Part shown: piece by piece, positions 52,933 to 64,000 of the stretch | Numbering within the stretch: position 1 is the first letter of the stretch | Layout: each line of letters opens with the position of its first letter | Assembly (NCBI GenBank): GCA_020073265.1 | Contig: JAIQFN010000030.1 | Coordinates: 1 to 64,000, forward strand | Reading direction: 5' to 3' | Length of the DNA: 64,000 nucleotides | Source of the DNA: Terriglobia bacterium | GTDB lineage: Bacteria > Acidobacteriota > Terriglobia > Bryobacterales > Bryobacteraceae | Made by a program: the position numbers and the translations under genes | Notes under the pieces: generated by a model | The model's database searches: none | What the model was told of the DNA's origin: nothing | What the model saw: the letters and a program-made list of their open reading frames with translations, nothing else

Positions 52933-55215
52933 ATGACCGCTGTGCGAAGCCGGTGGTGGCGCGCTGCCGCTGCGATTGCGGCCGGTGCGGTGGCCGCCAT
53001 CCCGTTCTTCGCCGGCGCTCAGAGCGTCCCCATCCGCGACTCGGTCGACTCGCGGACCTGCGCCACCTGTCACGCGAAGATCTACGAAACGTATCAGCGA
53101 ACCGGCATGGCGCGCTCGTTTTATCGGCCGCAGTCGGACAATGTTGTCGAAGACTATCGCACGAACAATCGCTATTTCCACCAAGCTTCCGGTACGTATT
53201 TCACGATGCTCGAGCGCGGCGGCAAGTACTATCAGCGCCGCTATCAACTCGGCTTCCAGGGCAAGGAAACCAACGTCGACGAAAAGGAAATCGATTACGT
53301 GATGGGCTCCGGCAATCACGTCCGCACCTACTTGCACCGCACCGGCGCCGGCGCTCTGCTCGAGCTTCCGCTGGCCTGGTACGCCGAGAAGGGCGGCTAC
53401 TGGGCCATGAATCCGGGCTACGACAAGCCGGACCAGCCCGACGCGCGCCGCAAGATCAGCTATGAATGCATGTTCTGTCACAACGCCTATCCGCGGATTC
53501 CGGCGGGAAGCGACCAGCTTCGGGCGGAACCGCTTTTTCCCGGCGCGTCGCCGGAAGGAATCGACTGCCAGCGATGCCACGGGCCGGGCCGGCGGCACGT
53601 CGAGATCGCGCGGACTGCCGGCGCCTCTGAGCAGGCGATCCGCAGCGCCATCGTGAATCCCGCGCGCCTCGATCCCGACCGCCAGATGGAGATTTGCATG
53701 CAGTGCCATCTGGAGACCACCAGCTTTCCGTTCCCGCACTCGATTCTCAAATACGATCGCGGGCAATTCTCCTACCGGGCCGGCGAGCCGCTCGCGGATT
53801 TTTTGCTGGCCTTCGATCACGCCGCCGCAGGCCCGGCCGAGGACCGCTTCCAGATCGTGAACTCGGTGTACCGGCTGCGCATGTCCGAATGCTTTCTGAG
53901 AAGCAGCGGAAAACTGCAATGCACCACCTGCCACGATCCGCACGACATCCCGCGCGGCGAGCAGGCGGCGCGGCACTATAACGGCGTGTGCCTGGAGTGT
54001 CACACCGGCGCGTTTCGAAATTTGGTCGCAGCCGGGCGCCACACCGCTGCCACCGCTTGCGTGGATTGTCACATGCCCAAACGCAGGACCGCCGACGTGG
54101 TGCATGCCGTCATGACGGACCACTACATCCAGCGCAGGAAGCCGGAGTCCGATCTGCTGGCCGAAATGCCTGAGCCGCACGGTCCCGAAATCGTGTATCA
54201 CGGCGAAGTGGTTCCCTACTATCCGAAGCCGTTGGACTCGACCGGCGAGAACGAGCTGTATCTGGCGCTCGCGCAGGTCCGCGAGGAAAACAATGTCGAA
54301 CGCGGCCTCGCGCAATTCAGCGCGGCGATCAAGAAGCTGCGTCCCAGCCGCGCGGAGTTTTACGTCGAACTCGCCGACGCCTGGGTGAAGCGCAGTCAGG
54401 CGGAGAACGCCATTCCTTTGTATCAGGAAGCCGTGCGGCGCAAACCCGATTCGCTGGCGGGATGGCTGGGGCTGGGCAACGCTTTTGAGCAGGTACGCCA
54501 TGAGAACGATGCCGTCGCGGCATTCCGGCGCGCAACAGAGTTGTACCCGGCCGACGCAGCGGCTTGGCAGAAGCTGGGCGAGGTCTACGTCAAACAAGGC
54601 CAGAAGGCCGAGGCTGCAGCGGCTCTTGAGAAGTCCATCGAGCTGGATGGCGAGGTGCCCGAGGCTCACTACGCGTTGGCCACGCTCCGGGCGCAACCGG
54701 GCGGCGAACCGGATCGCGCCGAGGCGTCCTTTCGGGAAGCGATTCGGCTCCAGCCGGACTACGCCCAGGCTCGCATGAATCTCGCGATTCTTCTGTTCCG
54801 GCGGAATCGCGCCGACGAGGCCGAGTATGAGTTTCAGGCCGCCCTCCGCGCGCGGCCGGACTACGCGCTCGGGCACTTCAACTACGGTCTCATGCTCGGC
54901 GTCCTGCATCGCGTCGGCCAAGCCCGATCTGAGTTCACGGCCGCGCTACGGGCGGATCCGAAATACGCGGAAGCCCACCAGGAGCTCGCGAAACTGGCGG
55001 AAGCGGGCGGGCAGGCGGACGAAGCGATCCGCGAGTATTCCGAGGCTGTTCGAATCCGTCCCGAGTTGAGCCAGTCGCAGTTGGCCTTGGGCGCCGCGCT
55101 CGCCAGAAGAGGCAACTTGACCGAAGCGCGGCCGCATCTCAACCTCGCCGCCCGTAGTTCGGACCCGGCAATTCGCGAAAGCGCGCTGCGCCTGCTGCGC
55201 GAACTCGGCCAATAA
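52933..55215 (+). CDS. Seven-heme c-type cytochrome with C-terminal TPR domain
   Basis: A 760-residue exported protein starting at ATG 52933, 6 bp after the DUF6351-like gene. After a signal peptide come seven CxxCH heme sites, at about C43, C179, C212, C255, C330, C353 and C376 (CATCH, CMFCH, CQRCH, CMQCH, CTTCH, CLECH, CVDCH), as in cytochrome c554-like proteins. From about residue 415 to the end there are many TPR units (AIPLYQEAVRRKPDSLAGWL, FREAIRLQPDYAQARMNLAI, FQAALRARPDYALGHFNYGL). It probably carries electrons in the periplasm. The redox partner is unknown. Confidence 0.93.
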   Translation: MTAVRSRWWRAAAAIAAGAVAAIPFFAGAQSVPIRDSVDSRTCATCHAKIYETYQRTGMARSFYRPQSDNVVEDYRTNNRYFHQASGTYFTMLERGGKYYQRRYQLGFQGKETNVDEKEIDYVMGSGNHVRTYLHRTGAGALLELPLAWYAEKGGYWAMNPGYDKPDQPDARRKISYECMFCHNAYPRIPAGSDQLRAEPLFPGASPEGIDCQRCHGPGRRHVEIARTAGASEQAIRSAIVNPARLDPDRQMEICMQCHLETTSFPFPHSILKYDRGQFSYRAGEPLADFLLAFDHAAAGPAEDRFQIVNSVYRLRMSECFLRSSGKLQCTTCHDPHDIPRGEQAARHYNGVCLECHTGAFRNLVAAGRHTAATACVDCHMPKRRTADVVHAVMTDHYIQRRKPESDLLAEMPEPHGPEIVYHGEVVPYYPKPLDSTGENELYLALAQVREENNVERGLAQFSAAIKKLRPSRAEFYVELADAWVKRSQAENAIPLYQEAVRRKPDSLAGWLGLGNAFEQVRHENDAVAAFRRATELYPADAAAWQKLGEVYVKQGQKAEAAAALEKSIELDGEVPEAHYALATLRAQPGGEPDRAEASFREAIRLQPDYAQARMNLAILLFRRNRADEAEYEFQAALRARPDYALGHFNYGLMLGVLHRVGQARSEFTAALRADPKYAEAHQELAKLAEAGGQADEAIREYSEAVRIRPELSQSQLALGAALARRGNLTEARPHLNLAARSSDPAIRESALRLLRELGQ

Positions 55216-56633: not shown

Positions 56634-57479
56634 CTAGCGCGCCGAACTGATCCGGTCGACCGCCAGCAGAATTCCGTGCAGCAGCGCTTCCGGCCGCGGC
56701 GGACATCCGGGGATGAACACGTCCACGGGAATCACCTGGTCGACGCCTCCGCGGGTAGCATAGTTGACGCCGAATATTCCGCCGCTGATGCCGCATGTGC
56801 CCACCGCCACCACCACCCTGGGTTCCGGCGTCGCCTGGTACGTCTTGCGCAACGCCATCTCCATGTTGCGAGTTACCGGCCCGGTTACCAGCAGCATGTC
56901 GGCATGGCGCGGCGATGCCACGAAGTGAATGCCGAACCGCTCGATGTCGTGCACCGGGTTGTTCAGGGCGATGATCTCCAGCTCGCAACCGTTGCACGAA
57001 CCGGCATCCACCTCGCGGATGGCGAGCGATCGGCCCAGCGTGCTGCGAATCTTCTCGCGAAGCTCCCGGCCGGACGCCTCGGCTGCGCGCGCGCGATCCA
57101 CTGTGGAAGCCGACGTCAACGCCCGATGGCTTCCGTCCGGATTCAAAGCGTACTCGGCCGTCCGGATGAGATCGCGGCGGTCGCGAGTGGCCATTTCAAA
57201 CTCCCGCGTCACGCGCACGGCTCCATCGGAGGAGACCTCGGCGCACTGGCCGCAGAAGACGCAGCGTCCGTAGTCGATCGTCACGCGCCGCGCCGCCTCG
57301 CCTTCCACCAGCGTGATCGCCTCGGTGGGGCACACGTCGGCGGCGGGCCGGGCATCTTTCCAGCGCGCCAGATCAAACTCCGGCTTGCCGCGGAAGCTCT
57401 CAGAGAGGCGGGCCGGCACTCTCGGGTAGGGCGCCGTGACCACGCCGGTTGTCAGAGCTTTCTGAAGGATCTTGAACAT
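56634..57479 (-). CDS. Hyf/Hyc-type small subunit (NuoB-like) fused to ferredoxin domain
   Basis: A 281-residue subunit starting at ATG 57479, one base after the large-subunit stop. The C-terminal half is NuoB/HycG-like with all four ligands of the proximal [4Fe-4S] cluster: C162-NG-C165, C229 (AVGTCGISGG) and C259 (FIPGCPPRPEALLHG). The N-terminal half is HycF-like but keeps only C50 (DVCPTEA) and C73/C76/C79 (RCVFCGQC), so it can hold one cluster where HycF-type domains have two. It forms the electron-transfer arm of the Ehr-type complex. Confidence 0.88.
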   Translation of the reverse strand: MFKILQKALTTGVVTAPYPRVPARLSESFRGKPEFDLARWKDARPAADVCPTEAITLVEGEAARRVTIDYGRCVFCGQCAEVSSDGAVRVTREFEMATRDRRDLIRTAEYALNPDGSHRALTSASTVDRARAAEASGRELREKIRSTLGRSLAIREVDAGSCNGCELEIIALNNPVHDIERFGIHFVASPRHADMLLVTGPVTRNMEMALRKTYQATPEPRVVVAVGTCGISGGIFGVNYATRGGVDQVIPVDVFIPGCPPRPEALLHGILLAVDRISSAR

Positions 57480-57480
57480 G

Positions 57481-59058
57481 CTAACGGTCCGTGCCCGAGT
57501 ACGAAAGATTGAAACTCTTGTTGATCACCGGGAAGTCGGCGATGATGTTGTCTTCGACCGCTTCCACCAGCGCCGGCCAATTGTTGACGGACGGGTCCTT
57601 GATCTTGCAGCGTTCCAGGCGATTGCCGGGAGCGGTGCGGACCCAATGGATGATTTCGCCCCGCCATCCTTCCACCACCCCCAAGGCACACCGGCCAGCC
57701 GGGATATCCTGAGCCGGCGCGCGGTGCGGTCCATCAGGCAAATGCGCCAGCGCCGCTCGAATCATGCCGATGGACTCCCGCACTTCGTCGATGCGCACTT
57801 GCATTCGGTGCAGGACGTCGCCGTCGGTGTAGACCGGCACGCGGAAATCGAGGCAGTCGTACGCGGCATAGGGATGATCCCGCCGCGCGTCCAGGTCGAC
57901 GCCGGAAGCGCGGCCACCCACGCCGACGATTCCGAGCGCCTTGGCTTTGTCGGGATGCAGGTAGCCGGTGCGCTGCAGACGGTCCCGAGTGGAATCGGAG
58001 GACTTCACCAGCGCGACCAGCTCTCCGAACCCGTGCTCGACGAGACCCAGTGTGGTTTCCAGCGTCTCGCGCTGGCGCCGCGTCCAGTCCCGCCGCACGC
58101 CGCCCACGCACACGCAACCGCGCAGCAGCCGGCTTCCCGTCAACTCTTCATTCAGTGTCACCACCGATTCCCGCAGCGAACCGGCGTGGGCGTTGGCCAC
58201 CACGAACCCGACGTCGGTGGCGATGGCGCCAATGTCGGCGACATGGTTGTAGATCCGCTCCAGCTCCAGCAGGATAGTGCGCATCACCCGGGCGCGGAAC
58301 GGCACTTCGATGTCGGCCGCTCGCTCGATGGCCTGGCAGAAGGCAGTGCCGTGCGAGAAGGACGAGTCGCCCGAGATGCTCTCCGCTAGAAACACTGCCC
58401 GATGAATCGGGAGGTGCTCGAACAGCTTCTCCGTTCCCTTGTGCGTGTAAAACATGCGCAACTGCAGATACAGGATCGGCTCGCCCGCGACCGCGAAGTT
58501 GAAGTGGCCCGGCTCGATGATCCCGGCATGCACCGGACCAACCGGAACTTGAAAGACTCCCTCGCCCAAGGTCGGACGATACTCATGCTGCTCGCCCTCG
58601 AACGGGGGCAGCACCTGGTGGAGCGCGAAGTCTTTTCGCAGCGGATGAACGTCGGGCCAGTTGTCGTGCAGCGCGACGCGCCGCGGATTGGGATGTCCGG
58701 CGGCTTCCAAGCCGAACCAGTCCTGAATCTCGCGCTCCTGCCAGTTCACGCCGGGCAGCTCCACGGCCAGCGAGGGGAAGCGCGGCTGTTCGGGTGCGAT
58801 GGCGGCGCGCAGAATCAGGTAGGCCGGATCGCCGCGGCGCTCGAACACGTAGTAGTTGTAGAAAGCGCCCTCGACGTTCACGCGATCCTCGGCAAAGACC
58901 GTGACCAGCCTGGCTCCATGCTGCGTCAACAGGCTGCGCGTCACCTCCTGCAAGTCCGCCGTGTCCAGGCTGGCGTAGATCTCGTTCGCGGAGCGCGATT
59001 CCAGAAGACGCATCCGTCCGGGGAAATTATCCAGCAGATTTTGACAAACGGCCATCAT
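57481..59058 (-). CDS. Hyf/Hyc-type large subunit (NuoCD-like) lacking NiFe ligands
   Basis: A 525-residue fusion starting at ATG 59058. The N-terminal NuoC-like part (residues 1-150, EIQDWFGLEAAGHPNPRRVA) precedes a NuoD/HycE-like part. Where hydrogenases have RICGxC this protein has ESISGDSSFSH (Ser229, Ser232). Where they have DPCxSC before TDR it has NLSYSGTDR (Ser519, Gly522). The protein ends exactly at TDR, without the C-terminal peptide removed during NiFe maturation. It therefore cannot bind a NiFe centre. The fold and quinone-chamber framework look intact. Confidence 0.92.
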   Translation of the reverse strand: MMAVCQNLLDNFPGRMRLLESRSANEIYASLDTADLQEVTRSLLTQHGARLVTVFAEDRVNVEGAFYNYYVFERRGDPAYLILRAAIAPEQPRFPSLAVELPGVNWQEREIQDWFGLEAAGHPNPRRVALHDNWPDVHPLRKDFALHQVLPPFEGEQHEYRPTLGEGVFQVPVGPVHAGIIEPGHFNFAVAGEPILYLQLRMFYTHKGTEKLFEHLPIHRAVFLAESISGDSSFSHGTAFCQAIERAADIEVPFRARVMRTILLELERIYNHVADIGAIATDVGFVVANAHAGSLRESVVTLNEELTGSRLLRGCVCVGGVRRDWTRRQRETLETTLGLVEHGFGELVALVKSSDSTRDRLQRTGYLHPDKAKALGIVGVGGRASGVDLDARRDHPYAAYDCLDFRVPVYTDGDVLHRMQVRIDEVRESIGMIRAALAHLPDGPHRAPAQDIPAGRCALGVVEGWRGEIIHWVRTAPGNRLERCKIKDPSVNNWPALVEAVEDNIIADFPVINKSFNLSYSGTDR

Positions 59059-59062
59059 GCGC

Positions 59063-60565
59063 TCACTCTCCCGTCACCACTCTGGCCGCTCCGCGAATGA
59101 GGGCGAGCAACGGAGCAGGCAGCCAGAAGCCGATCACCACCAGCACCGCCGCCAGGAACAGCATGGGAGTGTTGCGCCAGGGATGCCACTCGGCGGCCGG
59201 CGCTCCATCGGACGGTCCTAGCACCAGGCTGCCGATGTGAATCAGCGCGCCGGCGAAGACGCCCATGCCAAAAACGATGAACAAGACGCTGGCTACCGAA
59301 TGGCCGCCGGCCAGCGCCGCGCGAACAATCAGGAATTCACTCTGAAACAAGCTGAACGGCGGCATTCCGATGATCGCCAGGATCGCCATCAGAAAGATGA
59401 CGCCGGTCACCGGCATGGCTTGGATCACGCCGCCTTTGATCTTCCGGAACAGATCGGTCTTGAAATGTTGGGACACATTGCCGGCGCACAAGAACAGCAG
59501 CCCCTTGGCCACGGTGTGAAAGGTCATGTGCAGCATCAGCGCCAGTGAACCCAGCGCGCCGCCCACGCCCAGCGCTGTGGCCATGATGCCCGCGTGATCG
59601 ATGGTGTGATAGGCCAGCAGGCGCCGGTAGTTTCGCTGCACCAGCACGAACGGCGCCGAAACCCCCATCGACAATATGCCGAACGTGATCAGCAGGCCGC
59701 CGGCGAAATCGGGACCCAGGCATCGGGTGCTCAGGATATAGAAGCGGACCAGTCCGTAGAGCGCGCAGTTCAACATGGCCGTCGACAGAATCGCCGCCGC
59801 GGGCACCGGCGCTTCGCTGTATGCATCCGGCTTCCAGGTGTGCATCGGCGCCAGGCCTGCTTTGGTGCCGTAGCCAAGCAACGCGAGAATGAACGCCAGC
59901 CGCATGGTGGTCTTGTCCAGTTGCGCGGCGTGCGACGCCAGAACCGACCAGTTCAAACCGGCCAGCGTCTCCGAACCGGCCAGGTTGTGGGCTGAATAAT
60001 AGGCCAGCACGGTTCCGAACAGCGCCATCGACAAGCCCACGCCGCCGATGATCGCGTACTTCCAGGCCGCTTCGAGCGATGTGACCTTGCCATAAAACAT
60101 CACCAGAAAGACGGATGCCAGCGTGGTGGCTTCGATGGCCACCCACATCACGCCCAGGTTGTTGGCCAGCGTGACCAGAAGCATGGCGAAGACAAACAGC
60201 GGCGTGAGGGCGTAATACTGGCGGAGTTTGGAATTGGCCGTGGCGCCGCTATCGTCGGACGCCAAAGCGCCGCTGCGCTCGTCTTCGCGCATGTAGCCGA
60301 CCGCGTACACGGAACACACCATTGCCATGGATGCCGTCAAAAGAATCACCAGCGCGCTGAGTTCGTCGGCGTAGAAAAAGCCGTCCCATAACGCCACCGG
60401 CCCCGATGCGAGCACTTGGCGGCCAAGCAGCAGCGCTACCACCAGGATCACGGTGAAGGCCGCGAGGTTGACAGCCTCCATCGCCACGCGCGTGCGGGCA
60501 AAATACGCTAGCCCGGCGGCGGCCAGTGGAACGATAAGCAAGGCGACCAGAAGCATTGCGTTCAC
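59063..60565 (-). CDS. Antiporter-like membrane subunit (HyfF/NuoN-NuoM-like)
   Basis: A subunit of about 500 residues, start taken at GTG 60565 with AAGG five bases upstream. ATG 60556 is three codons further in. About 14 helices are seen. Proton-channel residues typical of Mrp/NuoLMN proteins are visible: the Glu in MWVAIEATTLASVFLVMFYG, the Lys in LGYGTKAGLAPMHTWKPDAY and histidines in LLAYHTIDHAGIMATALGVG with FHTVAKGLLFLCAGNV. It follows the HyfE-like gene by one base. It pumps ions in the predicted complex. Confidence 0.92.
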   Translation of the reverse strand: MNAMLLVALLIVPLAAAGLAYFARTRVAMEAVNLAAFTVILVVALLLGRQVLASGPVALWDGFFYADELSALVILLTASMAMVCSVYAVGYMREDERSGALASDDSGATANSKLRQYYALTPLFVFAMLLVTLANNLGVMWVAIEATTLASVFLVMFYGKVTSLEAAWKYAIIGGVGLSMALFGTVLAYYSAHNLAGSETLAGLNWSVLASHAAQLDKTTMRLAFILALLGYGTKAGLAPMHTWKPDAYSEAPVPAAAILSTAMLNCALYGLVRFYILSTRCLGPDFAGGLLITFGILSMGVSAPFVLVQRNYRRLLAYHTIDHAGIMATALGVGGALGSLALMLHMTFHTVAKGLLFLCAGNVSQHFKTDLFRKIKGGVIQAMPVTGVIFLMAILAIIGMPPFSLFQSEFLIVRAALAGGHSVASVLFIVFGMGVFAGALIHIGSLVLGPSDGAPAAEWHPWRNTPMLFLAAVLVVIGFWLPAPLLALIRGAARVVTGE

Positions 60566-60566
60566 G

Positions 60567-61253
60567 CTAGCCTTGCAGCCTCCGCATTCTGCTGACATCC
60601 ATCGAGTCGAACGTTTCGCGGATGCGATACACCAGAATCGCCAGCACCAGCACGGCCACCAGGACATCGAAGAAGACTCCCAGCTCGACGATCAGCGGCA
60701 TGCCGTAAGTCAGAGAAATGGTGGCCAGGAACAAGCCATTTTCGAGCGAGAGCAACGCCAGGACCTGGGTCAGCGCCTTGCGCCGGTTAATCATGGTGAA
60801 GAAGCCAATCAGAAAAAGAGAGATCGCGACCGCCAGCGTGTTGTGGCCCAGGGCGGCGGAACTGGTGTGTGGATCCGACCGGTAGATCGACTCCGAAACG
60901 ATGTACCCGGCCAGCGTGAGCGCGCCGGAAATCAACACCGACAACGGCGCGTTGATGAACGGCTCGATCTCCTGGCGGATTCCGATGCGGTCCACTAGCC
61001 GCTCCAGCAGGATCGGAACCAGAATCGCTTTCACCAGCAGCGTCAGAACAGCCGCCATGAACAAGTGCGGCGCTCCATTGAAGACCGCGATGGTGCCGGC
61101 GATGAAAGCCAGCAGAAACGACTGCAGTCCGAAGATGCGGATGTTGGTGACAAGCCACCGCTGCGCCGCCATGGCGATCTGCAGCACCAGCACCATCGCG
61201 GCCGTCAGGGTCACGATCTTGTCGCCGAACTCCGGATTGAGAACGCTATGCAT
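60567..61253 (-). CDS. HyfE-like membrane subunit
   Basis: A 228-residue protein starting at ATG 61253 with about six helices, resembling HyfE, whose N-terminal helices correspond to NuoK (HNTLAVAISLFLIGFFTMIN, RKALTQVLALLSLENGLFLA with the conserved Glu, and the ending FFDVLVAVLVLAILVYRIRE). HyfE-type subunits are diagnostic for Hyf/Ehr-like complexes as opposed to complex I. It is embedded between the HyfC-like and HyfF-like genes with gaps of 1-6 bp. Confidence 0.9.
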   Translation of the reverse strand: MHSVLNPEFGDKIVTLTAAMVLVLQIAMAAQRWLVTNIRIFGLQSFLLAFIAGTIAVFNGAPHLFMAAVLTLLVKAILVPILLERLVDRIGIRQEIEPFINAPLSVLISGALTLAGYIVSESIYRSDPHTSSAALGHNTLAVAISLFLIGFFTMINRRKALTQVLALLSLENGLFLATISLTYGMPLIVELGVFFDVLVAVLVLAILVYRIRETFDSMDVSRMRRLQG

Positions 61254-61259
61254 GGAACC

Positions 61260-62201
61260 TCAGAACAGAAACGTGGACGCCAACGCGAGCGCACCCAGCG
61301 TGAACGCCACCGCCAGCAATTCGGGCACGCGGAACAGGCGCATTTTTGCGTTGGTCGTCTCCACCAGGACGATCGCGCAGCTTAACGCTGCCAGCTTCAG
61401 CAGCAAATAGACCAGGCCGGTCACAACGCCGGGCGCGGACCAGCCGGCTTCGAGTCCGAACGGCCAGAAGCAATTGATCAGCAGCATCATTAGTAGAAGC
61501 TGCTTGATGGCGCCGCCCCATTCGATCAGCGCCAAATATGGGCCGGAGTATTCCAGAATCATGGCCTCATGGATCATGGTGAGTTCCAGGTGGGTGGCGG
61601 GATTGTCCACCGGGATCCGGCCGGTCTCGGCGATCAACACCAGAAACAGCGCGGCGAACGCCAGCATCTGCGATGGCGCCAGGAAGTGCCATTGTTGTCC
61701 CACGGCCGCTTTGACGATTTCCGCCAGGCTGGTGGAGTTTGCGCCGATGGCCACGGTGAAGATGGCCAGCATCATGGCCGGCTCGGCCAGCGCGGAGATG
61801 GTCATCTCGCGGCTGCTGCCCAGCCCGCCGAACGAGCTGCCTGTATCCAGGCCGGCCAGCGCGGTCATGAAGCGCCCCAGCCCCAGCAGGTACACCACGG
61901 CCAGCACTCCGCCGAATAGCGCGAGCGGCGCTTCAGCCGAAACCATGGGGATCATTAGGCCCGCCAGGATCGCGGTGAGGAACACGAAGTAAGGCGTTGC
62001 TGTGAACAGCCACGAAGCCGTGCCGGGGATCACCATGCCTTTGCGAAGCAGCTTGTACAAATCGCGGTACGGCTGGAACAGGCCGGGACCTCGCCGGGTC
62101 TGCAGCCGGGCCTTCAGTTTCTTGATGAAGCCGCTCACCAGCGGGGCCACCGCGAGCAGCAACATCAGTTGCAGCAGAGCCTGGAGCGCCGCTTCCATCA
62201 T
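61260..62201 (-). CDS. HyfC/NuoH-like membrane subunit
   Basis: A 313-residue protein starting at ATG 62201, overlapping the preceding gene as ATGA. It is the quinone-site membrane subunit. Family blocks are RRGPGLFQPYRDLYKLLRKG, GLGRFMTALAGLDTGSSFGG, LGSSREMTISALAEPAMMLA and ETGRIPVDNPATHLELTMIH with EAMILEYSGPYLALIEWGGA. The charged residues of the NuoH/HycD interface are conserved. About eight helices are seen. It links the large/small subunits to the antiporter arm. Confidence 0.93.
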   Translation of the reverse strand: MMEAALQALLQLMLLLAVAPLVSGFIKKLKARLQTRRGPGLFQPYRDLYKLLRKGMVIPGTASWLFTATPYFVFLTAILAGLMIPMVSAEAPLALFGGVLAVVYLLGLGRFMTALAGLDTGSSFGGLGSSREMTISALAEPAMMLAIFTVAIGANSTSLAEIVKAAVGQQWHFLAPSQMLAFAALFLVLIAETGRIPVDNPATHLELTMIHEAMILEYSGPYLALIEWGGAIKQLLLMMLLINCFWPFGLEAGWSAPGVVTGLVYLLLKLAALSCAIVLVETTNAKMRLFRVPELLAVAFTLGALALASTFLF

Positions 62202-64000
62202 CCGCGCGCTCCGAACAGCAGCAGGATAATCAGCGTGATGAAGATGTAGGCCAGGTAGGCGTGGATGCTGCCTGCCTGCAACGCGCGCATGCGGTTGGCC
62301 AGCGCCAGGATTCGCTCCTTGATCGGATCGTACAGATGCTTTTCAAAAGCCGGCTCGATCTCGCTCTCGAACCGGATCGCGGTCGGATAGTAGGGCGAAA
62401 CTTCGAACTCCGCCTGGATCTCGCGGCGCGGCCGATACAGCGCGGAAAAAATCATCCGCAGCGGTTTGGAAAACGCCGTGGCCGTGTACTCGTTCGCGGC
62501 GGTCAAGCCGGGCAGTCCGCAGTCCCACACCGGTCCGCTCGTTCGGCGCGACCGGCGTCCCCAGGCCAGCCACAGCAGCACAGGCACGATGGACAGCAAC
62601 AGCAGCGACGCTGCGATACCCACAGTTGAGATGGTGCCGCTGCGCGGAGATCCTGCGGAAATGACAAACCCATTGGACGCCACCAGGGCCGAACTCATGC
62701 GCACCCCCAGCGCCTGCTGCGTGATGGGATCAAATACCGGAAGGAACCAGCTCGCGCCCAGACCCAGCACCACGCAGCCTACGGCGAGAATCGCCATCCC
62801 CAGTCGCATCGAGAAGGCCGTTTCGCGAGCCTGCTCCGCTTCCGCGCTTCTCGGAAGAGCCAGGAAGGTAATTCCGAAGGCTTTCACAAAACATGCCGCG
62901 GCCAGAGCCGCCGTCAATGCCAGCAGGGCGCCAGCCAGGGGGAACATCACGCGCGTGAGGCTCTGAGTGGTGCCAAATCCAGCCAGCAATGCCTGATAAG
63001 TAAGCCACTCGCTGACGAAGCCGTTCAAGGGCGGCAGCCCGGAGATGGCCACCGCGCCGATCAGGAAACAGAAAGCGGTCACCGGCATCTTGCGGATCAG
63101 TCCGCCCATCTTCTCCATGTTTCGAGTGTGCGTGGCGTGGAGCACCGCTCCGGCGCCGAGAAACAGCAGACATTTGAAGATCGCGTGGTTCAAGGTGTGG
63201 TACAGACCGGCGATCAACGCAATGGCGGCCAGAGTCGGATGCCCCAGCGAGTGGAACATCAGCGCGGCGCCGAACCCGATCAGAATGATGCCGATGTTCT
63301 CGATGCTGTGATAGGCCAGCAGGCGCTTCAGATCGTGCTCCATCAGCGCATACAGGACGCCCAGCAGCGCCGAGACGACGCCGATCGCCAGCACCAGGAT
63401 CCCCGCCCACAGCGGAGGCACGTCGAAGAAATCGAAAAAGACGCGCGCCATGCCGTAAATCCCCGCCTTGATCACGATGCCCGACATGAGTGCCGAGATG
63501 TTGCTCGGCGCCACCGGGTGCGCAGCCGGCAGCCACACGTGAATCGGAATGATGCCGGCCTTCACTCCGAATCCCAGGAAGAACAGCACGAAGATCGCGC
63601 CTTGCTCCCCCGCTGGCAGCCTGGATGCCAGCAAATGGAAACTCGAGAAATCCAGCCCGCCGGCCGCCACCGCCAGCAGCAGAAAAGCAATCAACTGAAG
63701 GCCGGTACCGGCGTGAGACATGATCAGGAACAGAACGCCGGCCTGGCGCGTTTCTTCCTTTTCGTGCTCGAAGCTGACCAGGCAATAGGTCGCCAGGGCC
63801 ATCACTTCCCAGGCCACCAGGAAGAAGAACGCGTTCGCGGCGGTGAACACCAGCACCAGACTGAGCAGCAGAAGATTGTAGAAGAATCCTAGAGCGCCGG
63901 CATTCCTGGGCTTCTTCCAGTCCCGCAAATAACCGAACGAGTAGATGGAAACGGCGGCGCCCAGGATCCCGAGCGCCAGGCAGAAGTACGCCGACAACGG
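62198..64000 (-). CDS. HyfB/NuoL-like antiporter subunit (5' end beyond window)
   Basis: The frame is open to the right edge, so at least 600 residues are seen and the start lies outside. The visible part begins LSAYFCLALGILGAAVSIYS, which in homologues follows some 70 residues of N-terminal helices. Channel residues include VAWEVMALATYCLVSFEHEK (Glu), FGVKAGIIPIHVWLPAAHPV (Lys, His) and LLAYHSIENIGIILIGFGAA with NHAIFKCLLFLGAGAV. A C-terminal amphipathic/transmembrane tail follows. It is the first visible gene of the complex, and more subunits may lie upstream. Confidence 0.92.
   Translation of the reverse strand, partial: PLSAYFCLALGILGAAVSIYSFGYLRDWKKPRNAGALGFFYNLLLLSLVLVFTAANAFFFLVAWEVMALATYCLVSFEHEKEETRQAGVLFLIMSHAGTGLQLIAFLLLAVAAGGLDFSSFHLLASRLPAGEQGAIFVLFFLGFGVKAGIIPIHVWLPAAHPVAPSNISALMSGIVIKAGIYGMARVFFDFFDVPPLWAGILVLAIGVVSALLGVLYALMEHDLKRLLAYHSIENIGIILIGFGAALMFHSLGHPTLAAIALIAGLYHTLNHAIFKCLLFLGAGAVLHATHTRNMEKMGGLIRKMPVTAFCFLIGAVAISGLPPLNGFVSEWLTYQALLAGFGTTQSLTRVMFPLAGALLALTAALAAACFVKAFGITFLALPRSAEAEQARETAFSMRLGMAILAVGCVVLGLGASWFLPVFDPITQQALGVRMSSALVASNGFVISAGSPRSGTISTVGIAASLLLLSIVPVLLWLAWGRRSRRTSGPVWDCGLPGLTAANEYTATAFSKPLRMIFSALYRPRREIQAEFEVSPYYPTAIRFESEIEPAFEKHLYDPIKERILALANRMRALQAGSIHAYLAYIFITLIILLLFGARG

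Follow-up and report, generated by a model that had tools for sequence, protein, structure and literature searches.

An Ehr-type membrane complex encoded by a Terriglobia bacterium and the loss of redox ligands among its relatives

Ehr complexes are an already published class found in nitrifiers, CPR bacteria and others. A cytoplasmic redox reaction coupled to ion translocation has been proposed for them in the literature and is not established. We analysed a window of 64,000 nucleotides, meaning the whole stretch of DNA under study, and compared its operon with described systems. The published Ehr of N. moscoviensis (PMC12342949) and of comammox bacteria (PMC10284858) had the operon order and the NiFe-ligand loss in common with the window. 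They also carried the same SGD[ST]/NLSYxG motif and belonged to the same Cys-less group. Nitrospira small subunits (L058-L067) had no ferredoxin domain, whereas the small subunit of the window was fused to a one-cluster ferredoxin domain. This fused protein is an addition over the published class.

The hydrogenase 4 and formate hydrogenlyase of E. coli (HyfB-I, HycB-G; 7z0s) had homologous subunits. Unlike the window, they carried a NiFe site, a separate 8-Cys ferredoxin subunit, HycB/HyfA and a C-terminal peptide. Respiratory complex I (NuoCD/B/H/L/M/N) shared its homologous core and proton-path residues with the window; unlike the window operon, it has an NADH module and quinone-site residues. 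In M. tuberculosis, the regulator Rv0081 controls the six-gene cluster Rv0082-Rv0087, annotated oxidoreductase-oxidoreductase-hycD-hycP-hycQ-hycE (PMC6901956). This "formate hydrogenlyase-like" locus, Rv0081-Rv0087, was likened to the window by gene layout and annotation.

The operon and its large subunit

The operon was complete. Its order along the minus strand was hyfB, hyfC, hyfE, hyfF, large subunit and ferredoxin-small subunit, with the following features in window coordinates.

62198 to 64000, minus strand: HyfB-like antiporter subunit, truncated at the window end (NF005086 above cut-off)
61260 to 62201, minus strand: HyfC/NuoH-like subunit (Pfam NADHdh, 2.7e-49)
60567 to 61253, minus strand: HyfE-like membrane subunit (NCBIfam NF008556, 102.8 bits, cut-off 136)
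59063 to 60571, minus strand: HyfF-like antiporter subunit, E147, K237 and E412 kept, start codon uncertain
57481 to 59058, minus strand: Ehr large subunit (NuoC+NuoD/HycE-like), 525 aa, no NiFe cysteines (translation, structure alignment)
58360 to 58380, minus strand: codons of S227-S233 (SISGDSS) in place of the first NiFe Cys pair RxCGxC
57484 to 57510, minus strand: codons of N517-R525 (NLSYSGTDR) in place of the second NiFe Cys pair DPCxSC
56634 to 57479, minus strand: fused ferredoxin-small subunit, 281 aa (Pfam Fer4 and Oxidored_q6)
57165 to 57479, minus strand: HycF/HyfH-like ferredoxin domain, residues 1-105 (aligned to HycF 7z0s_F)
56637 to 57038, minus strand: small-subunit domain with the proximal/N2-type cluster cysteines C162, C165, C229 and C259

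A sequence-only reading of the window had described HyfB, C, E, F and I-like genes as intact. All of them were intact, but the "hyfI" proved to be the fusion of a ferredoxin domain with a small subunit. On the contig (C117 of the window genome), hyfB was complete at 62198-64237 and encoded 679 aa. It scored 708.5 bits against the NCBIfam model "hydrogenase 4 subunit B" (cut-off 667). In the case of the large subunit, no NCBIfam model was above its cut-off, and the best was NuoD with 231 of 360 bits. The forecast that automatic annotation would mislabel the complex as a hydrogenase was therefore only partly right. The gene set and order recurred in most of the 80+ loci examined, and in another set of loci the small-subunit gene came first.

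The NuoB-like small subunit and the NuoH-like and Mrp-antiporter-like membrane subunits of an Ehr were all found. The pump residues were intact in HyfB (E/K/K/E) and HyfF (E/K/E), which agreed with the ion-translocating architecture claimed earlier. The equivalents of E. coli NuoM E144, K234, K265 and E407 were kept in HyfB of nearly all relatives; in HyfF, E and K were kept and the last E mostly so. The HyfC-like proteins at L103:5579-7177 and L107:5895-7496 were about 533 aa long, and a separate hyfE gene was not found there. These are possibly HyfC-HyfE fusions.

The large-subunit product of 525 aa had the C-terminus ...KSFNLSYSGTDR followed by the stop codon. Its best structure match was E. 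coli HycE 7z0s_E (E 1e-80, near full length). Next came P. furiosus MbhL and T. thermophilus Nqo4, and MbxL (6u8y_L) was a weaker match than HycE (E 3e-28). The AlphaFold2 model, with a mean pLDDT of 92.6 (53 sequences), gave a TM of 0.95 to HycE 7z0s_E and about 0.90 to E. coli NuoCD. In the alignment with HycE, S229 and S232 fell on RVCGIC, and S519 and G522 fell on DPCYSC. The two CxxC motifs by which a group 4 [NiFe] hydrogenase binds NiFe were replaced by these four residues, leaving a group-4/NuoD-like large subunit without any of the four NiFe cysteines. The claim that all four had become Ser or Gly was thereby confirmed, and the residue numbers given with it (229, 232, 519 and 522) were exact. 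A sequencing error was excluded as the source of the loss because independent genomes carried the same motif. The stop directly after TDR was also real, but it lost its diagnostic value, since 12 of the 12 four-Cys sisters among the matches listed stopped there.

The ferredoxin domain kept one [4Fe-4S] ligand set (C50, C73, C76 and C79). The first three cysteines of motif 1 (CxxCxxC) and the last Cys of motif 2 were gone. In two-cluster ferredoxins, the cysteines equivalent to C50, C73, C76 and C79 bind one cluster. The kept cluster presumably corresponds to N6b of complex I, the neighbour of N2. With the N2-type cysteines, the window protein keeps ligand sets for two FeS clusters, and nearly all members of its close clade retained both sets of cysteines.

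Relatives, altered ligand site and gene surroundings

One genome scan returned at least 580 related stretches, of which 80 were kept; the tree was built quickly and contained several long branches. Among the matches listed, the ligand columns formed two classes, a Cys-less one (SSSG, STSG, SNSG and similar) and 12 four-Cys sequences. All family sequences of both classes were separated in the quick tree from HycE and HyfG of E. coli, which stood on a fully supported branch (support 100). Among the matches listed, this tree placed the window in a 15-member Acidobacteriota clade (support 100), with Verrucomicrobiota joining (99). L067, identified as the N. moscoviensis Ehr through PMC12342949, fell among the Cys-less sequences with the window. 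The Ehr label proposed from the letters was borne out by this placement. The claim that the complex was not a hydrogenase also held, with the NiFe ligands gone, the protein in a Cys-less clade and no maturation genes alongside the operon.

When the 80 Cys-less sequences among the matches listed were held together, the likelihood increased by 8.8, and one clade was not rejected (p-AU 0.695). Because this arrangement gave the higher likelihood, a single loss of the NiFe site was compatible with the data. The quick tree had left room for several independent losses of these cysteines (4 changes), a reading set aside on the same comparison. In a relative from the window's family (G022), L029 and L030 represented a divergent Ehr-like type in which ERFSAKS and LSATECDR replaced the usual motif.

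The Ehr-specific residues were S229 and D231 at the first ligand site and N517, S519 and G522 at the second. Among the matches listed, all 80 Cys-less relatives had Ser at positions 229 and 519; Asp at 231 was present in 91-100% and Gly at 522 in 91-97%. Since the two serines were invariant and D231 and G522 were nearly always kept across the family, the NiFe site, judged from its residues, is remodelled and not decayed.

The four-Cys sisters (L057, L061, L064, L078, L083, L087-L089 and others) had the operon, the fused ferredoxin-small subunit, the pump residues and the end at TDR as in the window. Unlike the window, they had all four NiFe cysteines. Nine large-subunit columns were type-specific between Ehr and these sisters (207, 224, 229, 231, 282, 489, 517, 519 and 522), and five of them lay inside the ligand motifs. 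The small subunit, HyfB, HyfC and HyfF had three type-specific columns altogether (HyfE left out). The comparison with the sister hydrogenases shows no apparent alteration of the pump and points to the catalytic site as the part that differs. We looked for an Ehr-specific quinone residue gained in HyfC relative to the four-Cys sisters, and no clear one was found. At the loop position of window HyfC A202 (E. coli NuoH E216), 10 of the 11 four-Cys sisters had D, and most Ehr sequences had A.

A strong Ehr match was found in 9 of the 37 genomes of the window's family, so Ehr is an accessory trait there. In one of these family genomes (G024), the large subunit was identical over the tree columns to L044 from a Bryobacterales MAG. 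The window genome carried hypD twice, on contigs C129 and C86, neither of them the Ehr contig. Two hydrogenase large subunits were also encoded on contig C86, and each had its cysteine pairs at the two ligand sites. No hypD match was found in the near-complete Ehr-bearing genomes G034 (99%) and G058 (100%). No dependence of Ehr on Hyp proteins was thus found, and Ehr can do without Ni-Fe maturation.

Upstream of hyfB, an ArsR-family gene (Pfam HTH_5) was located at 64527-64958 of the contig (L019:11028-11459), and such a gene was similarly placed in several other Ehr loci. A SulP transporter lay between regulator and hyfB at L045:1896-3656 and L047:1883-3643, and a DabA inorganic-carbon transporter gene was near L055 (L055:1-1638). 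The operon itself held no donor or acceptor gene. In the operon and flanks examined, no formate dehydrogenase or HycB-type subunit of a formate hydrogenlyase was found, and the NADH-oxidising module NuoEFG of complex I was absent. Two neighbours were rejected as partners. No SDR gene adjoined the operon in the relatives examined, as one does in the window (minus strand, 55762 to about 56600). The multihaem TPR protein at 52933-55215 had no counterpart beside the operon in the relatives examined; it is convergent with the operon, and its TPR repeats come after several CxxCH haem motifs.

Electron transfer and its alternatives

The window operon encodes a membrane complex of the Ehr type whose ancestor was a group-4 hydrogenase, and a non-hydrogenase, ion-translocating complex is the best reading of it. 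Redox chemistry probably still drives the window complex, with electrons running through two FeS clusters to an acceptor. In the full explanation, which we favour with modest confidence, a soluble low-potential carrier would deliver electrons to the single ferredoxin-domain cluster (N6b-like). The electrons would pass to the N2-type cluster on the same polypeptide, arrive at the metal-free large-subunit pocket (S229-G-D231, N517-L-S519-Y520-x-G522) and there reduce a small non-H2 acceptor. As in complex I, this reduction would power the movement of ions through HyfC, HyfF and HyfB. The carrier, the acceptor, the direction, the coupling and the ion are those that we infer. The window's pump residues appear compatible with such a mechanism, and the conserved operon, the fixed motif, the retained FeS cysteines, the fold and the dispensable hypD argue for it. 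The missing donor or acceptor gene, the missing quinone residues and the same-pocket relatives without an FeS set argue against it.

These relatives formed the end of a graded series. Most four-Cys hydrogenases of the family had ligand sets for two ferredoxin clusters, N2 and NiFe. L087-L089 had one ferredoxin cluster together with N2 and NiFe, the window clade had one ferredoxin cluster and N2 without NiFe ligands, and Nitrospira and others had N2 only. Among the matches listed, three or all four of the N2 cysteines were missing at 11 loci. These were mostly from CPR bacteria but also from Thermoleophilia, a Methanosarcina MAG and others, and most were MAGs.

Cofactor-poor loci: L068, L073, L076, L082, L085, L090, L096, L103, L107, L116, L119
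F1-ATPase genes with the Ehr operon: L068:1226-10485, L107:241-10545, L103:762-10545, L073:494-9368

In the cofactor-poor small subunits, C229 and C259 were mainly replaced by Asp, and GSCNGC became GSDNAC-like. The large-subunit residues S229, G230, D231 and S519 were kept in 11 of 11 loci, as were the HyfB pump residues. Since relatives with the same pocket and the same pump had no FeS ligand set, electron transfer cannot serve every member. The CPR paper (PMC7304191) reports Cys loss in the large subunit only, and a limited literature search found no earlier report of N2-Cys loss in the small subunit. The graded cofactor loss is a new lead within a class that is itself already known.

This series bears on a reading without redox chemistry, in which the pocket would bind a ligand or relay protons and gate the exchange of ions through the antiporter subunits. 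Any FeS clusters present would then be leftovers or regulators. We consider it unlikely for the window but keep it in serious consideration because the pocket outlived the wire that would feed it. It is consistent with the kept pocket and HyfB pump of the 11 loci among the matches listed. In three cofactor-poor genomes searched (MAGs, maybe incomplete), no other PF01058 protein was found. F1-ATPase genes directly preceded the Ehr operon on the same strand in L068, L073, L103 and L107; atpD was present in all four, with atpC between it and the operon in L068, L103 and L107. However, the window's own clade retained the ligands of two clusters, and uphill transport would have no evident energy source. 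The cofactor-poor forms, mostly from MAGs, may also be one derived clade (not rejected, p-AU 0.484) and hence a special case.

A complex I-type quinone reductase fed by ferredoxin appears improbable. Nitrifiers use quinones, and Ehr occurs in nitrifiers; the fold was near NuoCD (TM 0.90) and a NuoH-like subunit was present. However, the key Tyr and His positions were lost: in the alignment, T. thermophilus Nqo4 H38 corresponded to window I181 and Y87 to G230, both of which we take to be quinone-site residues in complex I. The operon showed no NuoA-like gene, HyfC scarcely differed from that of the four-Cys hydrogenases, and Ehr-bearing Margulisbacteria had no quinone synthesis genes.

Persisting proton reduction, or another metal bound through Ser/Asp ligands, would fit the hydrogenase-like pocket shape and the surrounding H177, E182, H236, D390 and R392. 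It is very improbable, with the thiolate ligands all gone and Ehr present in genomes without hypD, and H2 does not induce the N. moscoviensis Ehr (PMC12342949). A decaying, functionless hydrogenase operon, suggested by the lost catalytic residues and the patchy distribution in the family, is hardly credible and was already contradicted by the conserved operon of six intact genes and by motif residues fixed across many phyla.

Implications for the Ehr class

The residue signature, the sister hydrogenases, the one-cluster fusion and the cofactor-poor relatives are added here to the published class. The signature, the near-unchanged membrane arm and the stepwise ligand loss allow a direct test of whether electrons are needed. 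We tentatively suggest, as an idea that may well prove wrong, that Ehr are hydrogenase-derived ion translocators whose function resides in the remodelled, metal-free pocket, with redox cofactors that are optional and lost stepwise. If true, Ehr would amount to a machine resembling complex I that works without redox chemistry, with CPR forms that have no redox ligand set, some of them beside ATP synthase genes. The relatives that lost their remaining redox ligands but kept pocket and pump suggest that the Ehr class may not always work by electron transfer. If some members need no electrons, the coupling of complex I would be open to study in a natural redox-free variant.
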